Shown here: piece by piece, positions 6,260-31,221 of the stretch
Layout of the letters: the number at the start of each line of letters is the position of its first letter
How positions within the stretch are numbered: the first letter of the stretch is position 1
The notes under the pieces: model-generated
Told to the model about the DNA's origin: nothing
The model's database searches: none
The model's input: only the letters and a program-made list of their open reading frames with translations
Program-made: the position numbers and the translations under genes
Assembly (NCBI RefSeq): GCF_002975275.1
Contig: NZ_PCOQ01000010.1
Span: 124,001-188,000 of the forward strand
Length of the DNA stretch: 64,000 nucleotides
Reading direction: 5' to 3'
From: Achromobacter sp. MYb9
GTDB taxonomy: Bacteria > Pseudomonadota > Gammaproteobacteria > Burkholderiales > Burkholderiaceae_B

Positions 6260-7921
6260 CTAGTTCCCCGAAGGCATTGGCAGAGCGAAGCCTTCCTTGG
6301 CCAAGCCGTCCCGTATGTGCTGGAAGCGTTCGTACTGCGACAAGGTGATCGGCCCGTCATAGACCTCGCTTTGCGCCTTGCGAGGGGGGTACTTCACATA
6401 CGTCTTCATGAGGTCGGCGGCGGCTGCGTTCATCGACACTATCGTCCAGGTTCGTTCCGTGACGTTGCTCATGAAGATGTCGTAGCGCTCCTGTGGGTCC
6501 GCCCACAAGTCAAAGACCTGCGGAACGGCCGCGACATAGGACTCCGCACCCTTCCAGCCCAGGTTGGTGTCGACGGCCAGTCCGCCCGTCTTCACGCCGT
6601 TGTCGCCCCTCAGATTGAACACGGCCTTGTAATTGCCCACGCGAATGGCCCCCGGCGACAACTCGTTTTCCGTGAAATAGAACCACGACTTGCGTTCAGA
6701 TTTGCCAGTGCCGAACAGCACCGGCGACATGTCGTAGCTATCGAACACAATGGGTTTGTCCGCGCGATCATTAACGGGCAGTTTGATGCCCGCCATTGAT
6801 GCGAAGGTCGCCATCAGGTCAAGCCCACCCAAGATGTTGTGGTCCGTCGAGGCGGGCGCAATCTTGCCCGGCATCCAAGCGATGGCGGGAACGCGATTGC
6901 CGCCTTCTCGAACCGTGCCCTTGGTGCCGCGGAAGGGGGTGTAGCCCGCATCGGGGTAGACGTCCTGCCAAGCGCCATTGTCCGTCGTGTAGAAGACCAG
7001 CGTGTTCTTGTCCAGCCCTAACTCCCGAACCTTATCCATGATCCGCCCAATTCTCGCATCCAGCTCTACGACCGAATCTGCATACTTGCTCTTGGACATC
7101 GACTTACCCTTGTAATCAGGGTCCGGCATATTTGGCTGGTGGACCTTCATGAAGTTAATGTTCATGAAGAACGGCTGCTCGGATTTAGCGTTGCGGTCCA
7201 GGTACTCGAGCGAGGCCTTTTCGACGTAGCGGTCGAAGAAGGGGATACCGACCACGCCTTCCTTGCCGTTCACGACGGGCGTATCGACGTACTGACCATT
7301 GATCTTGAATTCCTCTCGCGCGGTTTCGCCCGCGTTACCCGACAGGGCACCGCGTGTCACCTTCTGGAACATCGCGCGCAGTTCAGGATCCATATCCGGG
7401 AACCAGGTTGGATCCGCATAGGTATAGGCGTTGAGATGGTACAAGCCGGCGTATTTCATCTCGTCGTAGCCTTGGGCATTTGGCAGCGAGTAGTCCGCTT
7501 CGCCCAGGTGCCATTTTCCGCTGAAAAAGGTCTTGTAGCCGCCCGTTTTCAGGACTGACGCCAACGTCCATTCTTCCTTGGGCAAGCCACCGCCTTGTCC
7601 TTGGAACGCCACCGTCGTCATGCCGCTGCGATTGGGGATGCGGCCGGTTTGCATGGCAGCCCGCCCTGGCGTGCAGCTGGGTTGGGCATAGAACGAGAAG
7701 AAGGTCATCCCCTCTTTGGCAAGCCGGTCGATATTGGGAGTGGGCATTCCGCGCCCCACACCGCCGCCGTAGGGGCCGAGGTCTCCGTATCCTGTGTCGT
7801 CCGACACGATCAGAATGATGTTTGGCTTGCGCGGTTCCTGCGCTATCGAGGCAGTAGAGAAAACCGCGGCGGCGACAAAAAGGGCCGCTGCGCCCGACGA
7901 AAATATTCGTTTGGTCGTCAT
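6260..7921 (-). CDS. Exported arylsulfatase-type sulfatase 1 (formylglycine-dependent)
   Basis: This is a 553-residue type I sulfatase that would cleave sulfate esters. A Sec signal peptide ends near STASIAQ (about residue 27). NIILIVSDDTGYGD supplies the metal-binding Asp pair (41-42), and SCTPGRAAMQTGR carries the Cys83 to be converted to formylglycine (C-x-P-x-R). Further family marks are GKWHLGE and VFYTTDNGAW. The start at ATG 7921 is supported by GGAG 8 bases upstream. It is the first gene of a cassette with FGE 1 downstream. Divergently, across 634 bases, lie an outer-membrane protein and a DUF1254 protein. The natural substrate (aryl, lipid or glycan sulfate) cannot be told from sequence. 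Confidence 0.9.
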   Translation of the reverse strand: MTTKRIFSSGAAALFVAAAVFSTASIAQEPRKPNIILIVSDDTGYGDLGPYGGGVGRGMPTPNIDRLAKEGMTFFSFYAQPSCTPGRAAMQTGRIPNRSGMTTVAFQGQGGGLPKEEWTLASVLKTGGYKTFFSGKWHLGEADYSLPNAQGYDEMKYAGLYHLNAYTYADPTWFPDMDPELRAMFQKVTRGALSGNAGETAREEFKINGQYVDTPVVNGKEGVVGIPFFDRYVEKASLEYLDRNAKSEQPFFMNINFMKVHQPNMPDPDYKGKSMSKSKYADSVVELDARIGRIMDKVRELGLDKNTLVFYTTDNGAWQDVYPDAGYTPFRGTKGTVREGGNRVPAIAWMPGKIAPASTDHNILGGLDLMATFASMAGIKLPVNDRADKPIVFDSYDMSPVLFGTGKSERKSWFYFTENELSPGAIRVGNYKAVFNLRGDNGVKTGGLAVDTNLGWKGAESYVAAVPQVFDLWADPQERYDIFMSNVTERTWTIVSMNAAAADLMKTYVKYPPRKAQSEVYDGPITLSQYERFQHIRDGLAKEGFALPMPSGN

Positions 7922-8555
7922 CTTCAACGCTCCGCTGAAAGATAAATAAATCGACCGCACGAAGCTTTAAACCGCGCGGCGCTCAGGCATACGGGTTCAC
8001 TTTGGCATACGTACTGGAGTTCAAGGGCAAGCATTTTCTCGCCCTTGAGCGGATGTATTTTCACCTTCTTTAAAGAGCTGTCAATCGGTATATACCGCTG
8101 AAGACGCGGACACGGTGAGTCGCCTGAGCAGGCCGGACCGGGATAATCGCACTACCCTTCGGACCATCGGTTGAATTCGATGCTGGCGCAGAAAATTGCC
8201 ATACGTTTTTACCCGCGCATGAGCGAAAAAAAACTGAAGTGATACCGTTAAATTCGAAGTAATCTAACCGCGAGAATTAGCCGCACTGTCCCGGCAGGCG
8301 TCGCCCCAGAACCACTATGTTGGCAGGAAAAAGAAGCGGGCAGGACGCTAATCAGTTTTGGTTGCGCTGTGCCCAACCGTTTCCTATATCCCGTAGCCAG
8401 TGGCTGCTTCGAGCCTCGCTGCCGACGAATACGCCGCCGGTCAATGGTCACAATGAGACGGGTATTGGAGCTCTGAACATTTTCACCGCATACCTGATCG
8501 ATTCCCGAAATCCACCGGTTAGATGACTGGCTCGTGCGCGGGCCGAGGCGGGGCG
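7922..8555. other. Divergent intergenic region, no convincing gene
   Basis: These 634 bases separate sulfatase 1 from the outer-membrane protein gene. Short ORFs at 8248-8451, 8317-8526 and 8448-8657 overlap on opposite strands and have no recognisable protein features. The stretch holds a long inverted repeat at 8021-8048 and AT-rich patches around 8070-8095 and 8220-8265 that could contain promoters for the two divergent units. No RNA gene was recognised. Confidence 0.5.
8021..8048. repeat. 8-bp perfect inverted repeat with 12-base spacer
   Basis: TCAAGGGC at 8021-8028 is repeated in inverse orientation as GCCCTTGA at 8041-8048. No T tract follows on either strand, so it looks more like a dyad operator than a terminator. 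It lies 100 bases upstream of the sulfatase 1 start codon. No regulator can be assigned. Confidence 0.45.
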
Positions 8556-10837: not shown

Positions 10838-12235
10838 TCAAAAGGCTGCGGGGGGCATGGCGATTTCTGTCAGGCGTTGCCCGTCGTTGCCATCCTCGAC
10901 TCTCCAGCCTCGGGTGTTTAACATCTTTCGTATCTCATCGGCTTTTGCCCAGTTCTTTGCCTCTCGGGCTTGAGCGCGTTCACCGAGCAGCACCCGGATA
11001 CTTTCCGGAATGTCAGACGCAACTGGGTTCCAATCTCGCAACCCAAGGCCCAGTACAAAATCAAAGCTGTCCACAGTCGCTTTCAAGGTCGCAGGTAGGA
11101 GGTCGCTCTTGACGAGTTCCCATAGCACGGCCAATGCCCTCGGCAGATTCAGGTCATCATTCAATTCGGCGTTGAAGCGCGCGGCGAAATCTGGATCGAT
11201 GCGGCCACCGTCCGGCCAACCGGAATAGAGATGCCGCAGCCGGTTCAAGGCTGTCTGCGCTGCACCTAGAGACGCCCAACTGAAATGCAGCTTGCTCCGG
11301 TAATGAGCTGTCATGCACAGGTAACGGTAGGCAAGCGGATCGATGTTCCGACTGCGCAGCGTCTGCAGGCGAACAAAATCCCCACTCGACTTCGACATCT
11401 TGCTGTCGGCATTGAGTGTTAGAAAATGTCCGTGTATCCAGAAGTTCGCAAGACGAGTGCCGTGGGCCGCTTGTGTTTGCGCAATTTCGTTGCTGTGATG
11501 CACGGCGATATGGTCTTCTCCGCCACAGTGGATGTCGAACCAGATGCCGAGGTGTTTCGCCGACATGGCCGAGCACTCAATATGCCAGCCCGGAAATCCA
11601 CGCCCCCATGGGCTATCCCATTCCATCTGCCGTACTACGCCCTGCGGACTGAACTTCCATAGCGCAAAATCCGTGATGTTCTGTTTAGCGCCAAGTGCTA
11701 CGCGCTTGCCCGCCTGCAGGCCGGCACGGTCGAGCCGGGCCAGAAAGCCGTAGTCGTCCTGTTTGCTTGTGTCGAAATAGAGACCGTCGTTGGTCTTATA
11801 CACGTAGCCGGACCGGTCCAACTCGCCGATAAACGCGATCTGTTCGGCGATGTGATCGGTTGCGCGGCACCATACCGTCGGCTCCAGCAAGTTGAGGGCA
11901 TGCCAATCCGCGACGAAGGCCTCGGTGTAGCGCTGAGCAATGGCATATGCGGACTGCCCGGTCCGTCTGCTACCTTTTTCCATCTTGTCTTCGCCTTCGT
12001 CGGCATCCGAAGTCAGATGACCGACGTCGGTGATATTAACGACGTGACGGACCTCATACCCGTTGCGAATGAGTACCCGGCGCAGAATGTCTTCAAACAC
12101 ATACGTTCTTAGATTGCCAATATGCGCATGGTCGTAGACGGTGGGTCCGCAGCAATACATGCCGACGTGGCCAGCGTGGATTGGCGTGAACGAGCGCACG
12201 GTTCGCGACCAGGTGTCGTACAACGCAAGTGGCAT
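10838..12235 (-). CDS. cysS: Cysteine--tRNA ligase with a cysteine-codon leader
   Basis: This class I aminoacyl-tRNA synthetase charges tRNA-Cys and, at 465 residues, has normal length. Visible motifs are the zinc ligand Cys29 in CCGPTVYDHAHIGN (HIGN at 38-41), WHIECSAMSAKHLG and HCGGEDHIAVHHSNE, which carry further zinc and cysteine-binding residues, and KMSKS near 275. The start at ATG 12235 begins MPLALYDTW; the frame is open upstream but crosses a terminator hairpin, so the longer form is unlikely. About 175 bases upstream lie a promoter, a 25-codon ORF with Cys-Cys and a late Cys codon, and a terminator, pointing to transcription attenuation by charged tRNA-Cys. Whether this is the only cysS or a regulated second copy cannot be told from the window. 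Confidence 0.92.
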   Translation of the reverse strand: MPLALYDTWSRTVRSFTPIHAGHVGMYCCGPTVYDHAHIGNLRTYVFEDILRRVLIRNGYEVRHVVNITDVGHLTSDADEGEDKMEKGSRRTGQSAYAIAQRYTEAFVADWHALNLLEPTVWCRATDHIAEQIAFIGELDRSGYVYKTNDGLYFDTSKQDDYGFLARLDRAGLQAGKRVALGAKQNITDFALWKFSPQGVVRQMEWDSPWGRGFPGWHIECSAMSAKHLGIWFDIHCGGEDHIAVHHSNEIAQTQAAHGTRLANFWIHGHFLTLNADSKMSKSSGDFVRLQTLRSRNIDPLAYRYLCMTAHYRSKLHFSWASLGAAQTALNRLRHLYSGWPDGGRIDPDFAARFNAELNDDLNLPRALAVLWELVKSDLLPATLKATVDSFDFVLGLGLRDWNPVASDIPESIRVLLGERAQAREAKNWAKADEIRKMLNTRGWRVEDGNDGQRLTEIAMPPAAF

Positions 12236-12265
12236 CAACTCTCTCCGTGCCGAAGGGCGCAGGTA

Positions 12266-12300
12266 AAAACAAAAAAGCCGCCGGTTTTGCAACGGGCGGC
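12266..12300 (-). terminator. Intrinsic terminator (attenuator) in the cysS leader
   Basis: Read on the minus strand, GCCGCC (12300-12295) pairs with GGCGGC (12282-12277). A C-C mismatch is followed by an inner GTT/AAC stem closed by a GCAA tetraloop. TTTTTTGTTTTT comes immediately after the stem. It lies between the leader ORF stop (12333) and the cysS start codon (12235), so it must be read through for cysS to be transcribed. Confidence 0.8.
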
Positions 12301-12332
12301 CAGAGGCGATTGATTCGACGTATAGCTAATGG

Positions 12333-12410
12333 CTAGACGCAGTTTCCCCTCGGCACGTTCTGACAACATGCACGGACCAGCGAAAAGAGGGATTTGACGC
12401 GAGTAGTCAT
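12333..12410 (-). CDS. Cysteine-rich leader peptide of cysS (25 codons)
   Basis: This short ORF, ATG to TAG, encodes MTTRVKSLFS, then LVRACCQNV, then PRGNCV. Tandem TGT TGT codons fall at positions 15-16 and a TGC at 24, two codons before the stop. Three Cys codons in 25 is far above chance usage for a rare amino acid. It is followed by a terminator and cysS, so it is read here as a ribosome-stalling sensor of Cys-tRNA supply. The segment just after the Cys-Cys codons (12348-12354) can pair with 12299-12306, which overlaps the terminator's 5' arm. A GGAGG lies only one base before the ATG, too close for a normal Shine-Dalgarno; the promoter position suggests a leaderless message instead. Confidence 0.65.
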   Translation of the reverse strand: MTTRVKSLFSLVRACCQNVPRGNCV

Positions 12411-12417
12411 GCCTCCA

Positions 12418-12447
12418 ATCCTAGCGGCTTTTGGTTGCGCAGGTCAA
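12418..12447 (-). promoter_or_regulatory. Candidate sigma-70 promoter of the cysS leader
   Basis: On the minus strand, TTGACC (12447-12442) and TAGGAT (12423-12418) are separated by 18 bases, close to the sigma-70 consensus. Transcription would begin at about 12411-12410, the first base of the leader-peptide ATG. The call is by eye, but its position directly upstream of the attenuator supports it. Confidence 0.5.
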
Positions 12448-17650: not shown

Positions 17651-18229
17651 GCGATGAACTCCGGTCCGGCCCAGGTATGTGGGAGGTTCTTGAGGCCATG
17701 GCTAGGTTAGCGAGTAATCAGTTTTTCGAAAACTCCAGGCCGGGAAATGATGCAGTAAATCGGCCGGAAGCGTGCAGCCGCCGAATCTACCTTGTGGCTT
17801 GTGCGAACCAGCTCGGAACTATCGGTATGAGACAACTGGCCGTGGATAATGAGACTTTTCCGGCGGACCATGGACGGCAATTTGTGGATTATTCAAACAC
17901 CTTTGGGCTGATGTCGCCGTTTTCGAAAGCAATCAAGCGCATTGCATTTGGCATCGAATGGCAAGACACCGTTAACTCATTCTCCTAACCTAGCCTCGCC
18001 CTAGCGGCGAAGGGAAGTCACGGAGCAGATTGGGCCTCTCTTATTTTTGGGCTTGGACGCAGAGCGAAGACTGCCCGCATCCAGTCCAATGGTCACGAGT
18101 CCCACGGCTGCCGCGTCGGTGTTGAATGACGATGTCGTCGCGCATCAGTTTAATGATGCCCTAATACATCATCGTCGCTAACACTCGCCTCGCGAATAGG
18201 ATTTATATATAAATTTGCACGCAGAAGTA
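17651..18229. other. Divergent intergenic region, no convincing gene
   Basis: This stretch of about 580 bases lies between the AraC regulator and FGE 2. An ORF at 17620-17988 (122 codons) overlaps the regulator's start, has no recognisable features and is probably chance. An ATGATG/CATCAT inverted repeat sits at 18153-18172. An AT-rich patch near 18200 (TTTATATATAAATTT) could hold the promoter of the FGE 2-sulfatase 2 pair. Confidence 0.45.
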
Positions 18230-19237
18230 ATGTGCGACGGGGAAATGGTGACTATGCAGATCAATGCGGCGTGTACGGATTTATCATCGGAGCGTATGTC
18301 TGCTGAGATGGTGTACGTGCACAGTGGGACATTCTGGATGGGCTCTGACCATCACTATCCAGAAGAAAAACCGGCTCATCGCGTAGGTGTCGAGGGGTTT
18401 TTCATCGATAAAGCCCCAGTCAGCAACGCGCAGTTTGCCGAGTTTGTTGCGGCGACCGGTCATCGCACGTTTGCCGAATTGGCGCCTGACCCACGTGACT
18501 ATCCCGGTGCATTGCCTGAGATGCTATATGCAGGGTCGCTGGTCTTTCGCCAGCCGTCCGGACGGGTCGACCTGAACGATTGGTCGCTGTGGTGGGAGTT
18601 CATGCGGAACGCCAACTGGCGCCAGCCCTATGGGCCGCACAGTAGTATTGCGGGATTGGATGATCATCCAGTCGTCCATGTCAGCCTCCATGACGCGCTG
18701 GCTTACGCCCGGTGGAAGGGGAAGGATCTCCCCACGGAAGCCGAGTGGGAATTTGCCGCTCGAGGGGGGCTCGAACAGGCTGAATATGCTTGGGGATCTG
18801 AATTTACCCCTAGCGGTCGTCATATGGCCAACACTTGGCAAGGATCGTTTCCGACGACCAATCATCATCTCGACGGATATTCCCGCACTTCGCCGGTAAC
18901 TGCCTTCCCGCCTAACGGATATGGCATCTACGACATGATCGGAAACGTCTGGGAGTGGACATCGGACTGGTTTGCTCCCAGGCATGAGGTGGACACCAGG
19001 AAAACTTGCTGCATACCCAGAAACCCTCGTGGGGGCCTTGAGTCTGCCAGCTATGACCCGTGTCTGCCCAATATAAAAATCCCGCGCAAGGTGTTGAAAG
19101 GCGGCTCGCATCTGTGTGCTCCGAACTACTGTCGCCGCTATCGACCAGCGGCCCGACATGCCGAAGCAATCGACACCTCAACAAGTCATGTCGGCTTTAG
19201 ATGTGTTGTTCGAACTGGAAAATTCAATGAAATTTAG
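18230..19237 (+). CDS. Formylglycine-generating enzyme family protein (FGE 2), soluble form
   Basis: This is a second FGE of about 335 residues. It carries MVYVHSGTFWMGSDHHYPEE, AHRVGVEGFFIDKAPVSNAQF, HPVVHVSLHDALAYARW, LPTEAEWEFAARGG, GIYDMIGNVWEWTSDW and KGGSHLCAPNYCRRYR. The copper-binding Cys pair (C-x4-C, about residues 296 and 301) is intact. It has no signal peptide or membrane helix, so it should act in the cytoplasm, unlike FGE 1. Its last 11 bases overlap the start of sulfatase 2, giving translational coupling and identifying the likely substrate. The start is uncertain: candidates are TTG 18215, ATG 18230, ATG 18245 and ATG 18254, the last with GGGGAA about 10 bases upstream. Confidence 0.88.
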   Translation: MCDGEMVTMQINAACTDLSSERMSAEMVYVHSGTFWMGSDHHYPEEKPAHRVGVEGFFIDKAPVSNAQFAEFVAATGHRTFAELAPDPRDYPGALPEMLYAGSLVFRQPSGRVDLNDWSLWWEFMRNANWRQPYGPHSSIAGLDDHPVVHVSLHDALAYARWKGKDLPTEAEWEFAARGGLEQAEYAWGSEFTPSGRHMANTWQGSFPTTNHHLDGYSRTSPVTAFPPNGYGIYDMIGNVWEWTSDWFAPRHEVDTRKTCCIPRNPRGGLESASYDPCLPNIKIPRKVLKGGSHLCAPNYCRRYRPAARHAEAIDTSTSHVGFRCVVRTGKFNEI

Positions 19238-21608
19238 CCTAAAAATCAAAAAAACGCGCTGGTTCAGTGTAGGCACGACACTGCTGATGTTGGGGTCGCC
19301 TGTGGTAGCTCAGGAATCGCTGCCCTTTGCTCCCACGCCCTCGGGAAGTAAAGCGGGGCCGACCATTGCCGAATCGACCTACAGCCCGCTGCCCGCTAAA
19401 TCGCATCTGCCAAAGAACGCGCCCAATATCGTTGTGATTATGCTTGACGATGTCGGCCCGGCGCTTCCGAGCACCTTTGGTGGTGTGATTAATACACCCA
19501 CCTTAAGCCGCGTAGCGGCAGAGGGGATCACCTATAACCGGTTCCATAATGCGGCAATGTGCTCGCCGACACGGGCAGCACTTCTGACGGGGCGCAATCA
19601 TCATCGGGTCGGCTACGGCCAGATCGCAGAGCTGGCGAATGATTGGGATGGTTATTCAGGTCGAATTCCGCGCACTTCCGCGACAGCCGCTAAAGTGCTT
19701 GGCTATTATGGTTACGCAACGAGTGCCTTCGGAAAATGGCACAACACGCCAGCTAATGAAACTACGGCCGTCGGCCCCTACACGAATTGGCCGGCTGGAC
19801 AGGGCGTCGGTTTCGACTACTTTTACGGCTTCCTTGCCGGTGAATCGTCGCAATGGGAGCCGGCGGTCGTTGAAAACACGGTTCGCGTGGATCCTTCTGA
19901 AGGTAAGAAGGAATATCACTTCACCGAAGATATGACGGATAAGACTGTCACATGGATCAAGCAGGTTCATGCCCTGACACCGGATCGGCCATTCTTCGTG
20001 TATTGGGCACCTGGAGCGTCGCACGGCCCGCATCATATTTTCAAGGAATGGGCGGACAAATATAAAGGTAAGTTCGACAAAGGTTGGGATGTGATGCGCG
20101 AAGATGTTTTTGCTCGTCAAAAAGAACTTGGCTGGATTCCGAAAGACACGGAATTGACGCCTCGGCCTAAGACACTTGCCGCATGGACCGATATTCCAGA
20201 GGATGAAAAGCCGTTTCAAAGCCGGCTTATGGAAGTGTTTGCCGGCTATACCGAACACGCTGACGCTCAGGCTGGCCGGTTGATCGATACTTTGGATGAG
20301 CTGGGCATCCGTGAAAACACACTCGTCTTTTACATTTGGGGCGATAACGGCTCAAGTGCGGAAGGCCAGAACGGCACGATCAGCGAACTCTTGGCGCAGA
20401 ATGGCATTCCTTCCGAGGTTAAGGATCACATTCGGACCATGAACGAACTGGGTGGTCTGGATGTGCTCGGATCTCCCAAGGTGGATAACATGTACCATGC
20501 CGGGTGGGCTTGGGCTGGTTCTACGCCATATCAATCCACAAAGCTGATCGCAGCGCATTTTGGCGGAACTCGCACGCCGCTTGCGGTTTCGTGGCCAAGC
20601 AGGATTAAGGCAGATAACACGCCGCGTTCGCAATTCCATCACGTCAACGATATCGTGCCGACGATCTATGACATTTTGGAAATTGCGCCGCCGAAGCTCG
20701 TCGACGGGATCAGCCAAGATCCGATCGACGGCACCAGCATGACCTACTCTTTTGCATCCCCGACGGCGCCGGAACGCAAGGGTGAACAGTATTTCGAGGT
20801 CATGGGCAGTCGCGCCTACTATAAGGACGGTTGGATCGCTTCGGTATTTGGGCCGAGAATCCCATGGCAAACAGGCATCGACCCTGCAATCATGCAATGG
20901 TCACCGAAAAACGATGTCTGGGAGCTCTATGAGCTCAACAAGGATTTCTCGCAGGCGAAGGATGTCGCTCCCCAAAATCCCGATAAGGTGAATGAGCTGA
21001 AGATCGCTTTCGATGCGAGTGCGAAGGATAATAAGGTCAATCCGGTCGGTGGGGGATTATGGTCCATTGTTTTCCATCCTGAAGATGCTCCCTCCAATCC
21101 AGCCAAGATTTTCAATTACACACAGGAGGTTGTGGGTGTTCCCGAATTCACTGCACCGCGCCTTGGGTCACGAAGCAACCTTGTCACCATTGACGCGGAT
21201 TTAAAACCCGACTCGAAGGGCGTGCTCTACGCGCTGGGGGCCGTCTCCGGCGGCCTGGCCGTGTGGGTCGAGAATGGAAAACTCAACTACGAATACAATC
21301 TGTTTGAGATCGAGCGGACCCAGTTGGAAACATCCGCTCCGCTTCCCACAGGGAAGGTCAAGATCGAGGTCGAAACGCGCAAGGTTGCTGGCGCCCGCCC
21401 GGCGCCTTTGGATATTGTCATCCGCGTGGACGGCAAAGAGGTCAGCAACGGGCGTGTCCCACGTTCCACGGCGCTCACCTTTACCGCCAATGACGCCTTT
21501 GACGTTGGTCGAGATAGCTATTCCCCGGTCTCACTTGCATATTTCGATCGTAAGCCTTTTACTTTCAACGGAAATATCCGTCATCTAAAGGTCGAATATT
21601 TGGACTGA
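19227..21608 (+). CDS. Exported arylsulfatase-type sulfatase 2 (long form)
   Basis: This is a 793-residue type I sulfatase. The signal peptide covers about residues 1-29 (ending PVVAQ). The metal-binding Asp pair is in IVVIMLDDVGPA (74-75), and MCSPTRAALLTGRNHHR holds Cys112, the residue to become formylglycine. FGKWHN, FVYWAPGASHGPHH and FYIWGDNGSS follow the family. The C-terminal 180 residues form an extra beta-rich domain (IEVETRKVAGARPAPLDIVI, FDVGRDSYSPVSLAYF) seen in the roughly 780-residue arylsulfatases. The ATG lies inside the FGE 2 gene. The DNA here looks less GC-rich than neighbouring genes, which fits acquisition by transfer. The substrate is unknown. Confidence 0.9.
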   Translation: MKFSLKIKKTRWFSVGTTLLMLGSPVVAQESLPFAPTPSGSKAGPTIAESTYSPLPAKSHLPKNAPNIVVIMLDDVGPALPSTFGGVINTPTLSRVAAEGITYNRFHNAAMCSPTRAALLTGRNHHRVGYGQIAELANDWDGYSGRIPRTSATAAKVLGYYGYATSAFGKWHNTPANETTAVGPYTNWPAGQGVGFDYFYGFLAGESSQWEPAVVENTVRVDPSEGKKEYHFTEDMTDKTVTWIKQVHALTPDRPFFVYWAPGASHGPHHIFKEWADKYKGKFDKGWDVMREDVFARQKELGWIPKDTELTPRPKTLAAWTDIPEDEKPFQSRLMEVFAGYTEHADAQAGRLIDTLDELGIRENTLVFYIWGDNGSSAEGQNGTISELLAQNGIPSEVKDHIRTMNELGGLDVLGSPKVDNMYHAGWAWAGSTPYQSTKLIAAHFGGTRTPLAVSWPSRIKADNTPRSQFHHVNDIVPTIYDILEIAPPKLVDGISQDPIDGTSMTYSFASPTAPERKGEQYFEVMGSRAYYKDGWIASVFGPRIPWQTGIDPAIMQWSPKNDVWELYELNKDFSQAKDVAPQNPDKVNELKIAFDASAKDNKVNPVGGGLWSIVFHPEDAPSNPAKIFNYTQEVVGVPEFTAPRLGSRSNLVTIDADLKPDSKGVLYALGAVSGGLAVWVENGKLNYEYNLFEIERTQLETSAPLPTGKVKIEVETRKVAGARPAPLDIVIRVDGKEVSNGRVPRSTALTFTANDAFDVGRDSYSPVSLAYFDRKPFTFNGNIRHLKVEYLD

Positions 21609-22470: not shown

Positions 22471-25400
22471 TCACGCCTGTAACACGATCATGACCTCACG
22501 ATCTCTCCCATCGTCCAGCAAGGGAATTTCCCCTGATTTCTGCAGCACTCCATCAAGCGTCACGTAGCCCGCCCCATTTTCGGACTGTCCGCGCAGGGCG
22601 GTCACGGAGTACAGCGTAGCCCCGTGCCGATAGTGCAGCTTGAAGGTGTTCCAGTCCGCAGGCAGACAGGGGTGGAAGCTCAAGGAAGCGCCGCGCCGAC
22701 GCATGCCTAGTACCGATTCCAGGATCAGGCGGTACATCAGGCCTGACGAGCCGGTGTACCAGGTCCAGCCGCCACGGCCTTGCTGCCCAGGCGTAGTGTA
22801 GATATCCGCCGCCATGACATAGGGCTCCACCTTGTAGACGGCGGTTTTTGCGGGGGAGTCGGAATGGCTAATGGGGTTGAGCATCGTGAGCAGGTCGCCG
22901 ATGCGCGCGTTTTCTCCCAGGCCGCAGAACGCCATGGCGGTCCAGATGGCGGCGTGGGTGTACTGGCCGCCGTTTTCGCGCACGCCGGGCACATAGCCTC
23001 GGATGTAGCCGGGATTCAGGGCGGAGGAATCGAAAGGCGGGTCAAGCAGCCGTATCAGTCCGCGTGCGTTGTCGATCAGCCGCTCATCCACGGCCTGCAT
23101 GGCAAGGCGGGCGCGGTCTTCCCGGGCGGCGTCCGACAGCACGGCCCAGCTTTGCGAGATAGCGTCGATCTGGCATTCCGGGTTCTCGGCGGACCCCAAG
23201 GGGCTGCCGTCATCGAAATAGGCCCGCCTGTACCACCCGCCGTCCCAGCCGGACTCCTCGAGCCGCGAGCGCAGCCGCGCGGCTTCCGATTCGCAATGCG
23301 CAGCGAACGGCAGGTCTTCTCGCGCGCGGGCTAGGGCCGCGAACCGCGTCAGTGTGTTGTAGAGGAAGAAGCCCAGCCAGACGCTTTCCCCGCGACCGTC
23401 CTCGCCGACCTTGTCCATGCCGTCGTTCCAGTCGCATGATCCAATCAGCGGCAGGCCATGGGACCCAAAGGCGCTCAAGGCATGCGACAGAGCACGCGTG
23501 CAGTGCGCATACAGGCTGGCCGTCTCCCTGGACGGTGTGGGGTTGTCGTAGTTGGACGATTCCCCTGGGTTGAGCTGGCGGCCCTCAATGAATCCCGCCA
23601 TGTCGTCCAGCACATCCGAGTCCCCAGTCACTTCCACATAGTGGCAGGCGGCGAACGGTAGCCACAGGTAGTCGTCCGAGCAGCGCGTGCGCACCCCGCG
23701 ATTCGAAGGCGGGTGCCACCAATGCAGCACATCGCCCTGCACGAACTGCTGGGCCGCGCAGCGCAACAGGTGCTCACGCGCCAGGGCGGGGCGAGCGATC
23801 ACCAGCGCCATGACGTCCTGCAACTGGTCTCGAAAACCGAAGGCGCCGCCCGACTGGTAGTGGCCGCTGCGCGCCCACAGCCGGCATGCAAGCGTCTGGT
23901 AGAGCAGCCAGCCATTGGCCAGCGTGTTCACGGCAGGGTCGGGCGTGTCGATGCGCACGACTCCCAGCGTATCGCGCCAGTACCGTCTGACGGCCTGGAG
24001 TTCGCTGCCCGCCGCACCCAGTTCGCCGTACCGGCGCACCAGGTGCCTGACGTGCTCGACGCCTTGCGAAGAGGCACCAAGGTGGAACAGGATTCTGACG
24101 TCCTGCCCGTCCTCCAGCGTGGCGGGGACCTGGATGGCGGCGCAAGGATCGAGTCCCGCGCCTGTCCTGCCCGATAGCCGGCTGCGCCGCAGCGCTTGCG
24201 GGTGGCGCAGGGTGCCGTTTCTGCCGATGAACTCCTTGCGGTCGCCGGTCATGGTCCGCGTCGGGGCGCTGGTGTCGAACCATGCGACGTGCCCGGAGAA
24301 ATCGGTATTGAAGCTGTTGCGGGCCAGCAACGCCCCGGTCTCGGGATCGGTTTCCGTGACGACGTGCATGGAGGACTTGGCGCGCAGGTCGCCCAGCACC
24401 CACTCCACGTAGCCGGTCACCGACAGGCGCCGCCGGCGTCCCGACCGGTTGCGCAGCGTGAGCGCATAGAACTTCACGGGCGCATCCTGGGCAACGTGGA
24501 TGGACAGTTCGGATTCGATGCCGTCCTCCACGTGCTCGAACACCGTGTAGCCAAAGCCATGGCGCGTGACGTAGGCGGAATCGCCGCCAGCCGGGTAGGG
24601 GGCCGGAGACCAGTATTGGCCGCTGCTCTCGTCGCGCAGGTAGAAGGCTTCTCCGCAGGCATCGCTGACCGCGTCGTTGTACCAGGGCGTGAGCCGGTAT
24701 TCATGGGCGTTGTCGTTCCAGGTGTAGGCCTGCCCGCTTTCGGACACGACCGTGCCGAAGCCGGCGTTCGCGATGACGTTCACCCAGGGCGCCGGCGTGC
24801 GCCGGTCCCGAGTCGTGGTGATCACGTATTCCTCTCCATCTGGCGTGAATCCGCCCAGTCCGTTGTCGTGCAGGAGGATAGAGGCGCCCGAGCCGGGATC
24901 CGCCTGCGCCCCGGCCGACTGCACGGCGGGGGGCAGCACCGGCGTCGAGACCACCAAGGGTGCAATGCGCGTCTCGGGCAGGCCCAGGCGGTTCACCTGG
25001 TTGGACAAGGTGCCCAGCGTGTCACTGAGCGATATGCGCGACACCGCCTGCAGCAGCGTCCGGTCCTCTTCCGATATCTGGTCGCCGGGGCGAACGAAAA
25101 TGCCGCCGGGGCGGTCGATGATGTGCGCTTCCACGCCCGCGGATATCAGGCCCATCATCCGGTCCTGGAGCGCCTGGCGGTAGCTGCCCATATCCTCGTT
25201 CCAGATCACCAGGTCCACCGCCACGCCCTTTTGCCGCCAGTAGGCATGCGCCTGAACCAGCTGGCGTACGAGCTGAAAGTTGGCGGGATCCTTGATGCGG
25301 AGCAGCACAATGGGCAGGTCGCCCGAGATGGCGTATCCCCACAGGCCCGACTGTCCGCGGCGATTCTTCAGCAGCGTCGCCGCCTCGGCGCGCATGGCGG

Positions 25401-28400
25401 GGTTCTGATAGACGATGGCGTTGGCGAGCCGGGCGTAGAGCTGGGCGTCCGCCTCAGCGACGTTCAACTGGCGCAGGGTCACCTGCGCGTGTGTCCACGC
25501 AAGTTCCAGCGCCCGGTCAGCCAGGTGGCGATCCCGGTATTTGCTGATCAGGTTCATGCAGGCGCTGCGGCTGTCGCCCACGCCTTGCACCAGATCGATG
25601 ACCATGGATTCTTCTGCTTCCAGCGTGATCTCGCAACGGATCGCGGATACCGGGTCCAGTACCGAACCCTGGCTGCCCGTCAATGGCCCATCGCCCTCCA
25701 ACGCCTGAGGGTCGGCCACCGAGCGGCCCCGGCCCAGGAAGATGGACCGGTCCGTTTCGTAGGAGGCGGTGCCGGGATGACCGCCATGGATCGCCAAGAG
25801 CTGGAACATCCACGGCGGGTTGTCCGCCGGGCTTCGGCCCCGGCGGGAACAAAGGATGGCGCGTTCGGACGGGACGATCTCGGTCTGCACAAAAAGATTG
25901 CTGAATGCCGGATGCAGTTCATCCGCCATGGGCGGCGCGATAACGACCTCGGCATAGCAGGTGATTTCTATCGTCCGCCGCTCGCGGCTGCGATTCGTCA
26001 GGTGGCAGCGGCGCAGCTCGATATCGTCTTCCGGCGACACGACGATCTCGGTGTGTGTGTCGATCTGGTGGTCCGTGCGGCGGAATTCGGCGCGGCCTTC
26101 GGAGAAAATGACCTCGTAGTGATCTGGCCGCGTCAAGGTAGGCTGGTGCGAGGTGGACCAGATCGCGCCGCTGTCCTTATCCTTCAGATAGCAGAACGTT
26201 CCCCAGTTGTCGCAGGTGCCGTCCTCGCGCCAACGGGTCACGGCCAGGTCTTTCCAACGGCTCGAGCCCGCGCCGCTGTTGGTGACCATGACGTGGTAGC
26301 GTCCGTTGGACAGAAGCTGCACTTCCGGGATCGCGCTGTCGGCGGTATCCAGCACGCGCACCGGCGTTTCGGGCTGCCCCGTCGCGGTGCTGCGAATGAC
26401 CGACAATTCGGCTGCCTTTGCGAAGGCGGTCGCAGCGCGCGGGACCCGCTCCTGCAGCAGGAGCATGGTGGCCTGGAACGACGGATCCGCTTCAAAGCGT
26501 ACCTGCATCGTTCGTCCCAGCAGTACGTTCGCGATAGACAGGAATCCCATGCCCTGGTGGTGCGCCATATAGGCATAGACGATCGCACCGGTCTTGCCCG
26601 GCGGCAGGCGGCGCGGCGTATAGTCGATGGCCTCGTAGAATCCGTAGCGCCCCAGCAGGTTTTCCTTGGCCAGGCGCTGCAGATTGTGGCAGGCCTCGTC
26701 GGGCAACACCATCAGCGCCAGCATGGACGCATACGGCGCCACCACCACGTCGTCGGCCAGCCCCCGCTTCAAGCCTAGCCCCGGCACGCCGAACGCCCGA
26801 TACTGGTAATTCATGCCGATGTCGAAAAGGTTGTAGGCGCTTTCGGACATGCCCCAGGGGATGCCGAGCTTGTCGCCGTACTCGATCTGGGCGCGCACGG
26901 CCGACACGCAAGTCTGTTCCAGCAGGGTATGTGGGTAGGACGGCATGACGAGGCGTGGCATCAGGTATTCGAACATCGAGCCGCTCCACGACAGCAGCAC
27001 CGTGCCGCTTGCGGCGCCGCTGAGCTGCCTGCCGAGGGCAAACCACGTTTCCTGCGGCAGTTGGCCCTGCGCAACCGCTACGAAGCTGCTAAGACGGGCC
27101 TCGGAGGCCAGCAAATCGTACAGCCCCTCGTCGCGCCGGCGTTCGGTGAGGTTGTAGCCGATGGCCAGCAGCCGGCTGCCCGGGTCGTACAGGAATCGAT
27201 AATCCGCCACGGCCATTTCGGCCAGCGTGTCGGCCAGCACGGCGATCAAGGCAAGCCGATCGCGGGCGCGTTCACCCGCCGCGATCACTGCAAGCTCGGT
27301 TTCCAGCAGCCAGGTCTGCTCGTCGGAAGTGATATCCGGTGATGACAGCCGTTCTCGCAAGGTGGGCAGCACGCGCCTCGCCATGTCCGCGACCTGCTGC
27401 AAAGTCGGCATGGCATGCAGTTCGGGAATGTCCCGCCATCCGGCGGCGTTGGCCAGGCCTGGCCACGGCGCAAGCAGCGCCAGCTCGCTGCGTGCGGCTT
27501 CGCATTGCTGCAGCAGCGCCTGGCAATGCCAGAGCGCCTGCCCAAGTTCGGGCGCCGCATAGTGTCCTATCTGGGCTGAGGCCAGCGCGCATAGCCGATC
27601 CAGGTGCTGCTTCGCCTGGGGCAAGGTCAAGGCGCCGGCCTGGATGACGGAGTCCAGCGCGTCGGCGAAGGGCTCCAGCTCGGCGGAACTCCCTTCGGAG
27701 ACGCTTTCCCGCAGGACCGCCAATGCATCGGCGCATCCCTGAAATGTGCGGGGATGCAGGAGGGGCGCCTGCGCTAGTTCCAGCAGCCCGGGCCGCAGGG
27801 TGAGCAGATGGCCGGCAAGATTGCCGCTGTCCACGGTCGAAATGTAGAGCGGGGCCAGCGGCTTCAGGGTGATGGTGTCGTACCAGTTGTAGAAGTGCCC
27901 CAGATAGCGCTCCAGCGTGGCCATGGTGCCCAGCGACGCGTGCGTCTTTTCCAACAGGCGGCTCGCCTGGAGGTAGCCGAAGTCATAGGCGGCCAGGTTG
28001 GCCAGCAACGCCAGGCCGAGGTTCGTGGGCGAGGTGCGGTGCGCGATGCTCGGGGACGGCCGGTCCTGGATGTTGTCGGGTATCAGCCAGTTGTCTTGCG
28101 CGCCGCCATGGCCGTCGAAAAACGACCAGGTCTTGCGCGCCAGCATCCTCAGGAACTCGGTCTGGTCGGGGGACAAGTCGATCTTGGCAAGTACCGGCGG
28201 GCGGCTTAAGCGCCAGGCGATGACTGGCATCGCCGCCCAAAGCGCCAGAACCGGCAGGGCGGCGCCCCAGGCCGATGGGTTCAGCAGCATCACGCCGACT
28301 CCGATGGCGGCGGCGAGCAGGGGGGAACTCCAGACGGAAAGCAGGATAGGACCGGACCGCGTTCCGCCGTCGCGGTTGGTGACGCTGGACGGCTTCCATT

Positions 28401-31221
28401 CCAGCAGCCTCCGGCGCGAGACCGTCAGGCGGTACAGTGTCCGGATGACCGCGTCCAGGCTGTACAAGGCTTCATGCGCCAGGCTGGCCAAGGCAAACGC
28501 CGCCCGCGTGAACTGGCGCAGTGTCGGCGCAACCCAGCCGACCAGATGCTGCGCGAGCACGACGTCTTCTTCTTTTCTTACTCCGCTCAACGCCGAGGCA
28601 AACAAGGCCGGCAGGAACAGGATCAGCACGCAGGCGACTGTCCACAGGTACGGGGCAGGCAGTCGTGTCCAGCCCAGCGCAAGCAAAAGCACAAGACTGG
28701 CCGGGACCAGGCTGCGGCGCAGGTTGTCCAGGATCTTGGCGCGCGCGAGCGCCGGCAGGGGCGATCCGTGCCGCGCGCCTGGTGCCGTGGGCGACCGGCC
28801 AATCAGCCAGCCCAGTAGTTGCCAGTCTCCGCGTATCCAGCGATGCCTGCGGCTGACGTCCGCGGCGTAGCGGGCTGGCTGGCCTTCGAAGAGCTGGACG
28901 TCGCTCAGCAGGCCGGAGCGGGCATAGCAGCCTTCCAGTAGATCGTGGCTCAGGACCCGGTTCTCGGGGAAGCAGTCCTTCAAGGCCACCTCGAAAGCGT
29001 CTACGTCGTAGATCCCCTTGCCGATGAAGGACCCCTCTTTGAAGATGTCCTGATAAACGTCGGACACCGTGTTGGTGTAGGGATCGATGCCCGGATCGCC
29101 GCCGTTTAGGCGCGCATAGGCGGACGCTGTCAGGTCGGTCAAGCTCACCGCCACCCGGGGCTGCAGAATGCCATAGCCTCGAGTCACCCGGCGCGTGTCC
29201 GGGTCGAACCGCGCCTGATTGAGCGGATGGGCCATGGCGCCGACCAGCTTCCACGCGGTTTCCCGGGGCAGCTCGGTGTCGGTGTCCAGCGTTATGACGT
29301 ATCTGGTGCCGGCGAGCGCAGCCAGGTCGCCCACGACGCAGGAAAACGCGCCTGCGCCCTGGCCGCGGAGCAGGCCGTTCAGGTCGGCCAGCTTTCCTCG
29401 CTTTCTCTCGTAGGCCATCCAGACCCGCTCTTGTTCGTTCCAGCGGCGAGGGCGGTGAAAGAGAAAGAACGGACTGCGCCCTAGGCGCCGGTACTTACGG
29501 TTCAGCGCCTGGATCTGCGCCTGGGCGCGTTCCAGCAGCAAGGCGTCCGAGGGCTGATGCTCCGACGCGGCGTCCACGAAGTCCGTCAGCAGGCAGAAGC
29601 TCAGGTTCTCGCCGGGATTGGCCAGAAAGCGGATCTCCAGGGCCTCGGCCAGCGTCTCCGCGTCATCGAGGCCAATCAGCATCGTGGGGACGGCGACCAG
29701 GCAGCGGCCGCTGTCGGGGATGCGCTTGGCGTAATCCATGCGCGGAAGGCGCTGGGGCCGCACCAGCCACGTCAAGGACCAGTTGACAGTGGCCACGGCG
29801 AGATGGCTGGCGGCGATCAAGGACAGCACGGCGAAGCACGCCATGGCCCAGGGGCCGACTTCTGACCCATGGGCCATCGCCAGCAGCAGGGCGCCGACGC
29901 CTACCGTAAGCAGGATGATGGCGCCCGCATACAGGCGCAGCGCGGCGCGGGGCGAGATGCGGGCCACCCTCTCCCGCACGCTGAACTGAGCCTTGGCCCG
30001 TTTCGCCAGCTCGTCCTGGCCCTCGTCGATCAGGTAGTAGCCCACGTGCGCGCGCCGGAAATCGGCGCCCGGGCTCGGGTCGGCCGCGCCTGCCGTTGCC
30101 AGGTCGACTGCCATGGCGGCGATTTCAGTCTCCGCGTGCTCGGATTTCCGCGCCATCCGCTCGACGCGATGGCGGTAGTGGTCTCGGGTTGGAAAATCCA
30201 TGCCGGCGTAGACGCCGGCGGGATCCTGGCGCAAGGTCCGGTCCACGATGCTGACGGCTTCCACGAAGTCGTTCCAGTTCGTCGTCGACAAGGTGCGCAG
30301 GCTGCCGATGCTGTTGCTGATGGATACCTGGTCGGCCGCCTGTTGCTGGTTTTCGGTGATGACCATCTGTTCAATGGTCAGGTTGGACTGGGCAAGGCGC
30401 TGCTCGAACCACGTCAACGGCAGGGCCAGCGCCGGACCATGCCCCTGGAGTCGCCTGGCCAGTTCGGCCACGAACGAACCGTCTATGGGTGGATTCGAAC
30501 GCGCCATGTTGGCGATGACCAGTATCAGGCTGGTGGGATCCTCCTCGGCCGATTTCCGCATCGTGTCGGCCCAGGTGTCCGCCAGGCCGCGGTTCATGTT
30601 CGCGTAGGCCAGCCGGATGGCGACGCGGCGCAGGTTTTCGATCAGGCCCAGGCGCATCATGATGGGAATCGCCCACAATTCTCCCAGCTGCAGCGGCGTA
30701 ACCAATTGATAGGCGGCCACGAATGCCTGGATGCCCGCGGCATCGATCCGCGCGTCGCTATGGGAGATCATCTCCAGCGCAATGTCGTACACCCGCGGCA
30801 GTCCCTGCGAGGGGCCCGTGTCCAGCTTCGGCAGGCTGCGGCTGTAGCCCTTGGGCAGATGCCGTTTGGCCAGCCGGATCTGCTCTTCGATCAGGTAGAA
30901 ATTGTCCAGCAGCCATTCGTCGGCCGGCGTGATCTGGCGATTCTGCCGCACGGACTCCATCAAAAGCGCGCAGGCCTGAGCCAGCAGCGTCTGGTTTTCG
31001 GTAAGCCGTGGCAGCAAGGTGTCCGGCGGACGCGATCTGCCCACGTGATGCGCGTGCGCCAGCGCCTGGCCGTGCTGCTCCATTTGCAGCGAGCTGAACA
31101 GCTCCGCCCGCAGTGGCGGCTCGCTTTCGGCCGAGCGCAGCGTGGCCGTACCTCGGGCAAACAGGTCTATCCACTCGGGTGCAGCTTCGAGCGAGGGCCA
31201 ATCAATAGGTTTCATAGCCAT
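22471..31221 (-). CDS. ndvB: Cyclic beta-1,2-glucan synthase
   Basis: This is a 2916-residue inner-membrane enzyme that builds and cyclises periplasmic beta-1,2-glucans; the length matches the family. Layout: a soluble N-terminal region (1-420); membrane helices near 425-480 (LYAGAIILLTVGVGALLLAM); a GT84 glycosyltransferase centre with ITLDTDTELPRE near 645 and HRWIRGDWQLLGWL near 790; more helices near 830-870 and 960-1010; then carbohydrate-binding and GH94-like phosphorylase regions. Two similar beta-sandwich segments precede the catalytic GH94 part, with CDWNDGMDKVGEDGRGESVW near 2600. The product is linked to osmoadaptation and host interaction in rhizobia and Brucella. A Pgi homologue is divergently transcribed. 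In-frame ATGs at 31221 and 31215 are both possible starts. Confidence 0.93.
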   Translation of the reverse strand: MAMKPIDWPSLEAAPEWIDLFARGTATLRSAESEPPLRAELFSSLQMEQHGQALAHAHHVGRSRPPDTLLPRLTENQTLLAQACALLMESVRQNRQITPADEWLLDNFYLIEEQIRLAKRHLPKGYSRSLPKLDTGPSQGLPRVYDIALEMISHSDARIDAAGIQAFVAAYQLVTPLQLGELWAIPIMMRLGLIENLRRVAIRLAYANMNRGLADTWADTMRKSAEEDPTSLILVIANMARSNPPIDGSFVAELARRLQGHGPALALPLTWFEQRLAQSNLTIEQMVITENQQQAADQVSISNSIGSLRTLSTTNWNDFVEAVSIVDRTLRQDPAGVYAGMDFPTRDHYRHRVERMARKSEHAETEIAAMAVDLATAGAADPSPGADFRRAHVGYYLIDEGQDELAKRAKAQFSVRERVARISPRAALRLYAGAIILLTVGVGALLLAMAHGSEVGPWAMACFAVLSLIAASHLAVATVNWSLTWLVRPQRLPRMDYAKRIPDSGRCLVAVPTMLIGLDDAETLAEALEIRFLANPGENLSFCLLTDFVDAASEHQPSDALLLERAQAQIQALNRKYRRLGRSPFFLFHRPRRWNEQERVWMAYERKRGKLADLNGLLRGQGAGAFSCVVGDLAALAGTRYVITLDTDTELPRETAWKLVGAMAHPLNQARFDPDTRRVTRGYGILQPRVAVSLTDLTASAYARLNGGDPGIDPYTNTVSDVYQDIFKEGSFIGKGIYDVDAFEVALKDCFPENRVLSHDLLEGCYARSGLLSDVQLFEGQPARYAADVSRRHRWIRGDWQLLGWLIGRSPTAPGARHGSPLPALARAKILDNLRRSLVPASLVLLLALGWTRLPAPYLWTVACVLILFLPALFASALSGVRKEEDVVLAQHLVGWVAPTLRQFTRAAFALASLAHEALYSLDAVIRTLYRLTVSRRRLLEWKPSSVTNRDGGTRSGPILLSVWSSPLLAAAIGVGVMLLNPSAWGAALPVLALWAAMPVIAWRLSRPPVLAKIDLSPDQTEFLRMLARKTWSFFDGHGGAQDNWLIPDNIQDRPSPSIAHRTSPTNLGLALLANLAAYDFGYLQASRLLEKTHASLGTMATLERYLGHFYNWYDTITLKPLAPLYISTVDSGNLAGHLLTLRPGLLELAQAPLLHPRTFQGCADALAVLRESVSEGSSAELEPFADALDSVIQAGALTLPQAKQHLDRLCALASAQIGHYAAPELGQALWHCQALLQQCEAARSELALLAPWPGLANAAGWRDIPELHAMPTLQQVADMARRVLPTLRERLSSPDITSDEQTWLLETELAVIAAGERARDRLALIAVLADTLAEMAVADYRFLYDPGSRLLAIGYNLTERRRDEGLYDLLASEARLSSFVAVAQGQLPQETWFALGRQLSGAASGTVLLSWSGSMFEYLMPRLVMPSYPHTLLEQTCVSAVRAQIEYGDKLGIPWGMSESAYNLFDIGMNYQYRAFGVPGLGLKRGLADDVVVAPYASMLALMVLPDEACHNLQRLAKENLLGRYGFYEAIDYTPRRLPPGKTGAIVYAYMAHHQGMGFLSIANVLLGRTMQVRFEADPSFQATMLLLQERVPRAATAFAKAAELSVIRSTATGQPETPVRVLDTADSAIPEVQLLSNGRYHVMVTNSGAGSSRWKDLAVTRWREDGTCDNWGTFCYLKDKDSGAIWSTSHQPTLTRPDHYEVIFSEGRAEFRRTDHQIDTHTEIVVSPEDDIELRRCHLTNRSRERRTIEITCYAEVVIAPPMADELHPAFSNLFVQTEIVPSERAILCSRRGRSPADNPPWMFQLLAIHGGHPGTASYETDRSIFLGRGRSVADPQALEGDGPLTGSQGSVLDPVSAIRCEITLEAEESMVIDLVQGVGDSRSACMNLISKYRDRHLADRALELAWTHAQVTLRQLNVAEADAQLYARLANAIVYQNPAMRAEAATLLKNRRGQSGLWGYAISGDLPIVLLRIKDPANFQLVRQLVQAHAYWRQKGVAVDLVIWNEDMGSYRQALQDRMMGLISAGVEAHIIDRPGGIFVRPGDQISEEDRTLLQAVSRISLSDTLGTLSNQVNRLGLPETRIAPLVVSTPVLPPAVQSAGAQADPGSGASILLHDNGLGGFTPDGEEYVITTTRDRRTPAPWVNVIANAGFGTVVSESGQAYTWNDNAHEYRLTPWYNDAVSDACGEAFYLRDESSGQYWSPAPYPAGGDSAYVTRHGFGYTVFEHVEDGIESELSIHVAQDAPVKFYALTLRNRSGRRRRLSVTGYVEWVLGDLRAKSSMHVVTETDPETGALLARNSFNTDFSGHVAWFDTSAPTRTMTGDRKEFIGRNGTLRHPQALRRSRLSGRTGAGLDPCAAIQVPATLEDGQDVRILFHLGASSQGVEHVRHLVRRYGELGAAGSELQAVRRYWRDTLGVVRIDTPDPAVNTLANGWLLYQTLACRLWARSGHYQSGGAFGFRDQLQDVMALVIARPALAREHLLRCAAQQFVQGDVLHWWHPPSNRGVRTRCSDDYLWLPFAACHYVEVTGDSDVLDDMAGFIEGRQLNPGESSNYDNPTPSRETASLYAHCTRALSHALSAFGSHGLPLIGSCDWNDGMDKVGEDGRGESVWLGFFLYNTLTRFAALARAREDLPFAAHCESEAARLRSRLEESGWDGGWYRRAYFDDGSPLGSAENPECQIDAISQSWAVLSDAAREDRARLAMQAVDERLIDNARGLIRLLDPPFDSSALNPGYIRGYVPGVRENGGQYTHAAIWTAMAFCGLGENARIGDLLTMLNPISHSDSPAKTAVYKVEPYVMAADIYTTPGQQGRGGWTWYTGSSGLMYRLILESVLGMRRRGASLSFHPCLPADWNTFKLHYRHGATLYSVTALRGQSENGAGYVTLDGVLQKSGEIPLLDDGRDREVMIVLQA

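Follow-up and report, generated by a model that had tools for sequence, protein, structure and literature searches.

A predicted cysteine-codon transcription attenuator upstream of an accessory cysteinyl-tRNA synthetase gene in Achromobacter

Results and Discussion

A Short ORF with Cysteine Codons Precedes a Second cysS Gene

The locus raises the question of whether a short open reading frame (uORF) with tandem Cys codons and a hairpin, located upstream of a cysteinyl-tRNA synthetase (CysRS) gene, constitute a regulatory leader that senses tRNA-Cys. The window, i.e., the whole 64,000-nucleotide stretch of Achromobacter sp. MYb9 DNA that was analyzed, includes on its minus strand the promoter, the 25-codon ORF with Cys residues at positions 15, 16, and 24, the terminator, and the cysS gene, all of them at the coordinates given in the initial annotation (Table 1). 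The product of the gene matches TIGR00435 (396.4 bits; cut-off, 340) as well as PF01406. The Achromobacter genome carries another cysS, 39% identical to the one in the window, which is a second, accessory copy and is referred to as cysS2.

Table 1. Features of the cysS2 leader in the window and of a related leader upstream of cysE
Feature	Position	Strand	Remarks
-35 box TTGACC	12442..12447	-	Invariant in 11 Achromobacter and 8 Burkholderia/Trinickia/Paraburkholderia aligned copies
Promoter spacer	18 nt between TTGACC and TAGGAT	-	Window sequence
-10 box TAGGAT	12418..12423	-	7 nt separate its end from the uORF AUG
Leader-peptide ORF MTTRVKSLFSLVRACCQNVPRGNCV, probably leaderless	12333..12410	-	25 residues; Cys at 15, 16, and 24
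Sensor Cys codons 15-16 (TGT TGT)	12363..12368	-	First TGY-TGY in frame in 46/48 promoter-defined uORFs
Third Cys codon (24)	12339..12341	-	Unconserved; gone in L004, L007, L011, and L018
Segment 1, GCATGTT	12365..12371	-	Covers the sensor codons; can pair with 12359-12353
Segment 2, AACGTGCCGAGG	12348..12359	-	Pairs with segment 1 or, through GCCGAGG, with segment 3
GCCGAGG; AACG; CGTT	12354-12348; 12359-12356; 12294-12291	-	Positions in the window sequence
Segment 3, CCTCTGGC	12299..12306	-	Antiterminator partner; its GGC is the terminator base
Intrinsic terminator hairpin GGCCGCC...GGCGGCT	12276..12301	-	-15.9 kcal/mol
U tract, TTTTTTGTTTTT	12265..12276	-	Directly after the terminator stem
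Shine-Dalgarno GGAGAG of cysS2	12241..12246	-	Shine-Dalgarno-like duplex at 30/48 cysS starts
Accessory cysteinyl-tRNA synthetase gene cysS2	10838..12235	-	465 codons; ATG at 12235
cysE-type leader (L146)	G594:C228:4261-4366	-	CC..CC peptide; -10-like box 7 nt before AUG; terminator

The leader is very likely a ribosome-mediated transcription attenuator through which cysS2 responds to charged tRNA-Cys. This reading is based on the in-frame Cys codons, the spacing between promoter and AUG, a covarying terminator, moderate covariation of the antiterminator, and the linkage of the leader to one clade of cysS genes. The promoter spacing and the absence of a Shine-Dalgarno sequence suggest that RNA polymerase would start at or beside the AUG of the 25-residue ORF and that a ribosome would load at the 5′ end of the RNA and trail the polymerase. 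When Cys-tRNA is plentiful, the ribosome would reach the stop codon and cover segment 2, allowing the terminator to form and transcription to end about 30-40 nt before cysS2. When Cys-tRNA is short, due to cysteine starvation or a failing main CysRS, the ribosome is predicted to stall at Cys15-Cys16 and cover segment 1. The freed segment 2 (GCCGAGG) could then engage CCTC-GGC at the terminator base, which would let transcription proceed into cysS2. In cells that do not translate the ORF, a hairpin between segments 1 and 2 would presumably keep the terminator on.

The Leader ORF Is Conserved and Probably Leaderless

The upstream regions of related cysS genes were scanned for a promoter followed by an AUG 5-9 nt downstream, a search in which cysteine was not required. 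Five loci duplicating a contig (L008, L010, L098, L101, and L102) were removed before the counts and before the tree described below were made. The scan defined 48 AUGs, and the first TGY-TGY was in frame with 46 of them, while about one third is expected by chance. In the remaining two, TGY-TGY was out of frame (L066) or missing (L091). The gap between the -10 box and the AUG measured 7 nt for 42 of the 48 AUGs; the remaining six had gaps of 5 or 6 nt. With -5 kcal/mol as the weakest duplex counted, Shine-Dalgarno-like pairing was found at 30 of the 48 cysS starts but at none of the 48 uORFs. The bases between the -10 box and the uORF AUG showed no conservation in the aligned copies, and the GGAGG found in the window one base 5′ of this AUG is absent from the ten other aligned Achromobacter copies. 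A -10 box that ends 7 nt before the AUG places the predicted transcription start at or next to this codon. Together with the lack of a Shine-Dalgarno sequence, this spacing indicates that the leader ORF is probably leaderless, a property that amends the original description of the locus. Burkholderia cenocepacia is documented to have leaderless transcripts whose promoter motif lies immediately 5′ of them; the portion of that report available to us does not mention cysS (PMC4603805).

One rival reading is a chance ORF in a GC-rich intergenic region, located before a cysS copy that is constitutively expressed, and a short Cys-Cys ORF was indeed present in 1 of 20 upstream regions of housekeeping cysS genes. 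The geometry of the leader, i.e., promoter, AUG, and tandem Cys codons, was found in none of these 20 regions. Furthermore, a search of 1,771,408 strand-bases, comprising the window and 80 loci, identified 41 matches to the promoter-plus-leaderless-uORF arrangement with a score of at least 9. Cys-Cys was present in 29 of them, and all 29 are located upstream of cysS genes of the cysS2 type. The leader was also sought in plasmid copies that had been held out. Seven of these are betaproteobacterial and 76-82% identical, of which six were examined (H3 was left out). All six had the leader, and the leader model matched them at 94-106 bits (E <= 2.9e-16). It was not found in three remoter plasmid copies, from Vibrio, Sphingomonas, and Salmonella, which are 39-53% identical. 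Chance is contradicted by this conservation, together with the 46 of 48 in-frame tandems, and we consider its probability negligible. The comparison argues that the leader ORF is real.

The initial annotation had counted the third Cys codon among the features of the leader, a role that the relatives do not bear out. Besides its loss in L018, a 1-nt deletion after Cys-Cys in L004, L007, and L011 alters the end of the peptide and drops Cys24 while Cys15-16 stay in frame and the RNA segments remain in place. Judging from these variants, Cys24 is not needed for the leader.

Covariation of the Terminator and of the Alternative Pairings

An intrinsic terminator was present between uORF and gene in 39 of the 43 listed leaders and was not found in L039, L040, L054, and L087. 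To examine the pairings, 24 of these 43 leaders, chosen for variety, were aligned. Near-duplicates, AAGGCTGC-type terminators, terminator-less leaders, and some divergent leaders were left out. In the terminator, pairing was kept in 94.6% of 240 cells, and 5 of 10 pairs showed two-sided changes. Out of 500 shuffles, none reached its number of cells paired or its covariation score, 21 reached the count of pairs changed, and 33 the count of pair types, in comparisons where the controls (shuffles and slid versions) only partly remove the relatedness of the leaders. By these measures, the terminator clearly covaries.

The antiterminator, in which GCCGAGG pairs with CCTC-GGC, was paired in 87.4% of 167 cells, and 3 of its 7 pairs showed two-sided changes. 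Of the 500 shuffles, 4 were as high on cells paired and covariation score, 60 on pairs changed, and 244 on pair types, so that two of five measures were unremarkable. Compared with slid versions of the same pairing, it was higher on cells paired and score and tied with one of them on pairs changed. The alignment thus points to moderate covariation of the antiterminator. The pairing that the initial annotation had put forward held in this part, between GCCGAGG and segment 3. For its proposed extension, AACG with CGTT, 65 of 96 cells were paired, and the pairing is mostly absent beyond the closest relatives. Within the same region, AACGTGC fits better as a partner for the Cys-codon segment GCATGTT than AACG does for CGTT. 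This 1:2 hairpin had 73.2% of 168 cells paired in an alignment whose Chromobacterium rows are one base out of register for it, and one slid version covaries more. Four Achromobacter leaders gave z values near -3 for it, while the average over 41 leaders was -0.5. These values lend the hairpin modest support.

Folding was another check suggested at the outset, and no switch is seen at equilibrium. When a ribosome footprint covered the first Cys codon, the probability of the terminator was at least 0.5 in 38 of 39 leaders. With the footprint at the second Cys codon this was the case in 37 of 39, and with the footprint at the uORF stop the terminator likewise dominated in nearly all 39. The well-known E. 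coli leaders trpL, hisL, pheM, thrL, and leuL, which share with the cysS2 leader an ORF, regulatory codons, and a terminator, do not switch in this calculation either, since their stalled forms gave terminator probabilities of 0.94-1.00. As five E. coli attenuators behave alike, the equilibrium result is uninformative rather than contrary. When the folding was restricted to the time before the 3′ arm of the terminator exists, most leaders had some 3-4 nt of the 5′ arm held by the antiterminator. This cotranscriptional pairing did not exceed that obtained with a shuffled segment 2 (mean 4.0 vs. 5.8 nt, 37 leaders), and the shuffle fraction was at or below 0.1 in just 2 of the 37. The antiterminator of the window takes 4.1 of 11 nt of the terminator arm, a smaller overlap than those of the five E. 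coli controls, which range from 5.0 of 8 to 9.0 of 12. Considering that the equilibrium and shuffle tests gave no support, conservation and covariation were used as the evidence. The equilibrium result and the small overlap make the switch the least secure part of the model, and the exact antitermination step is proposed with moderate confidence.

The small overlap is also in line with a reading in which the Cys uORF acts by translational coupling or through Rho and the hairpin either terminates constitutively or is a separate RNA end. Such a mode has been proposed for mycobacterial cys leaders, and the accessible part of a study on actinobacteria describes cys leader peptides without terminators (PMC1262725). 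Moreover, Undibacterium-type relatives have poly-Cys uORFs in which a terminator was not found. However, a covarying terminator followed by a U tract lies between uORF and gene in Achromobacter and most of the relatives examined, and the overlap between GCC and GGC is conserved. We therefore regard coupling or Rho as improbable for the cysS2 leader and favor transcription attenuation.

Another reading takes the leader as a small RNA gene, with a terminated RNA that acts in trans and an ORF that is incidental. RNAs released by attenuators can act in this way, as described for rnTrpL of Sinorhizobium in the part of the source at hand (PMC7298713), and the Burkholderia small RNA BcKCsr2 gave a full-length but weak Rfam match (12.9 bits; gathering threshold, 40; E 2.1). 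At the gathering threshold, the window had no Rfam match, including none to a T-box upstream of cysS2, and 13 loci, Burkholderia copies among them, had one, to an rRNA. The identity with BcKCsr2 was dropped after this check. In addition, Cys codons are in frame in 46 of 48 cases and the leader is linked to cysS2, which makes a trans-acting RNA with an incidental ORF very improbable. Attenuation in cis thus remains the preferred explanation. The comparative test named in the initial annotation, conservation of the Cys codons, the terminator, and the GCC:GGC pairing, supported its proposal of a Cys-tRNA-sensing attenuator on cysS.

The Leader Belongs to a Clade of cysS Genes

Of 43 Achromobacter genomes, 11 hold the cysS2 gene. 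Among 268 genomes of the family there were again 11 carriers, each an Achromobacter, and a sample of 399 genomes from the order gave 17. When 112 relatives were placed on a quickly built tree, the copies from Achromobacter were nested among those of Burkholderia and Paraburkholderia, a placement that points to acquisition of cysS2 in Achromobacter by horizontal transfer. In Burkholderia and Paraburkholderia, seven copies are located on large plasmids. The leader was also represented by a covariance model, which had matches with E <= 2.9e-15 in exactly the 11 cysS2-holding genomes of the 43 from Achromobacter. The next Achromobacter match had a value of 0.008, and 26 of the 43 genomes had some match at E <= 1. 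Over the order sample, six of the 399 genomes had matches at E <= 0.01. Three of these precede cysS2 and one precedes cysE; at the other two (L147 and L148), neither cysS nor a Cys-Cys uORF was seen. The model is narrow, as it recovers 3 of the 17 cysS2 genomes of this sample at that threshold.

One clade of the tree (SH-aLRT 97) includes 83 rows, 62 of which have the leader, either as a leaderless Cys-Cys uORF (46 rows) or as another poly-Cys uORF (16 rows). The other 21 have no Cys-Cys or poly-Cys uORF by our criteria. By the same criteria, the leader is present in none of the 29 rows outside the clade, and at least five changes are needed on the tree. These labels were assigned by one of us and depend on the promoter: L059 and L136, outside the clade, were labeled as having none although a Cys-Cys uORF starts with ATG in each, and in L063 such ORFs start with GTG or TTG. 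The three were not counted because the promoter is missing. The in-frame Cys-Cys, the terminator, and the GCC:GGC pairing are kept in Achromobacter, Burkholderia, Trinickia, Paraburkholderia, Variovorax, Chromobacterium, and others, and two Janthinobacterium loci (L066 and L091) keep promoter and terminator with no in-frame Cys-Cys.

The idea that the leader goes with second-copy status was considered and dropped. Among 39 genomes picked for holding the cysS2 type, a leaderless Cys-Cys uORF was found in 25 of the 27 with two cysS copies vs. 1 of the 12 with one copy. Nevertheless, 8 of these 12 have a Cys-Cys or poly-Cys uORF, indicating that the leader is a trait of the clade rather than of the spare copy.

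In Achromobacter, cysS2 may be a spare synthetase that is induced under cysteine or CysRS stress. It would stay off during ordinary growth and be switched on once the main CysRS or the cysteine supply fails, and the leader suggests how a second copy of a gene with an essential function could be carried at low cost. We lean, by a small measure, toward a wider scenario in which the leaderless, terminator-type attenuator originated in a betaproteobacterial branch of a distinct CysRS clade and later moved together with the gene, both horizontally and on megaplasmids, the pair forming a self-contained module for a stress-inducible spare synthetase, a single cysE case hinting at a wider tRNA-Cys-sensing regulon.

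Comparison with Known Attenuators

Part of the novelty expected of this locus does not stand. A tandem-Cys uORF with a terminator before cysS has been published as the motif uORFC-8-2, with 145 examples, in the Rhodobacterales only according to the part of the article accessible to us (RNA Biol. 2021, PMC8632094). As described there, uORFC-8-2 has a tandem-Cys uORF, two stems, a terminal U run, cysS downstream, and the same proposed logic. The tandem Cys is usually at positions 14-15 in uORFC-8-2 and mostly at 15-16 in the cysS2 leaders. On the other hand, uORFC-8-2 is from Alphaproteobacteria, and the accessible text does not include the word "leaderless" or mention an accessory cysS (PMC8632094). 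The comparison was made by description: the cysS2 leader has the tandem Cys and the terminator of uORFC-8-2, and membership is not claimed. No earlier description of a betaproteobacterial cysS attenuator was found in the open-licence literature searched.

Leaderless ORFs with contiguous Cys codons reportedly sense cysteine in mycobacteria (Canestrari et al. 2020, as related in available parts of PMC9031893 and PMC13236596). These small ORFs resemble the cysS2 leader in being leaderless and cysteine-sensing but, according to the same sources, they act by translation attenuation of cysteine biosynthesis genes. Conserved terminator hairpins are not a feature of Mycobacterium cys leaders as described in the part seen of PMC1262725, unlike the cysS2 leader. 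The Sinorhizobium meliloti trpL is, like the predicted cysS2 leader, a transcription attenuator whose RNA begins at the leader AUG, and differs in its Trp codons and its gene, trpE(G), as far as the available text goes (PMC7298713).

The kind of element is therefore already known, both as a cysS attenuator and for its leaderless leader ORF. A leaderless leader ORF and an intrinsic-terminator switch, usually met apart, are here combined on a spare synthetase. This betaproteobacterial case, with its uncommon combination of features, brings a new, well-supported Cys-tRNA sensor into the catalogue of attenuators. An auxiliary tryptophanyl-tRNA synthetase gene of Streptomyces coelicolor is reportedly regulated by ribosome-mediated transcription attenuation, a finding attributed to Vecchione and Sello in 2010. 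It would be a spare synthetase under attenuation like cysS2, but it responds to Trp, its enzyme is antibiotic-resistant, and its host is an actinobacterium.

Variant Leaders and Neighboring Genes

The match of the leader model before cysE was found in G594, where a leader, MNMPSRFFVPCCAQCCRPGPGELVA, precedes a gene whose product matches TIGR01172 (230.2 bits; cut-off, 210.65). A similar cysE is present in 36 of 399 genomes. Thirty loci were examined, and 7 of them, G594 included, had a Cys-rich ORF by a loose rule. The other six, among the 29 non-G594 loci, were unconvincing by eye, and cysE was discarded as a general target.

Four of the 21 clade rows that lack the leader (L082, L084, L089, and L092) nevertheless have a short uORF that looks leaderless, contains one Cys codon (e.g., MIKQPSPFGACSRRP), and is followed by a terminator, an arrangement that we interpret from its layout as a reduced form of the cysS2 leader. 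In the Undibacterium-type copies (L034, L039, L040, L087, L094, and L095) the uORF ends in two to six Cys codons. An intrinsic terminator was not found in the three tested (L039, L040, and L087), hinting at a different mode of control. The cysS matches in G664 (L066, Janthinobacterium sp. LM6), G658, and G389 have one in-frame stop codon each. In L066, the gene, with this stop codon, and the leader, with no in-frame Cys-Cys, look as if both were decaying.

Among plasmid records, 592 had a cysS match at E <= 1e-60, of which 488 were from Klebsiella, and plasmid-borne cysteinyl-tRNA synthetases seem common. A Sphingomonas parapaucimobilis plasmid (L136) has a uORF with Cys-Cys (MNALVMWRPCCGDPARPRSG...) 214-238 nt upstream of cysS; this locus is alphaproteobacterial but outside the Rhodobacterales, the order of the published uORFC-8-2 motif. 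In the Vibrio coralliilyticus plasmid pOCN014 (L135), a 53% identical cysS, upstream of which a Cys uORF was not found, is located beside genes for a phosphopantetheinyl transferase, an EpsC serine acetyltransferase, an aminotransferase, and a CoA ligase, as if it were within a natural-product cluster.

Elsewhere in the window that carries cysS2 there are two sulfatases and a sulfatase-modifying factor of the formylglycine-generating type (6260-7960, 18215-19237, and 19116-21608). A 2916-residue ORF on the minus strand (22471-31221) has GH94 and glucoamylase-like domains.
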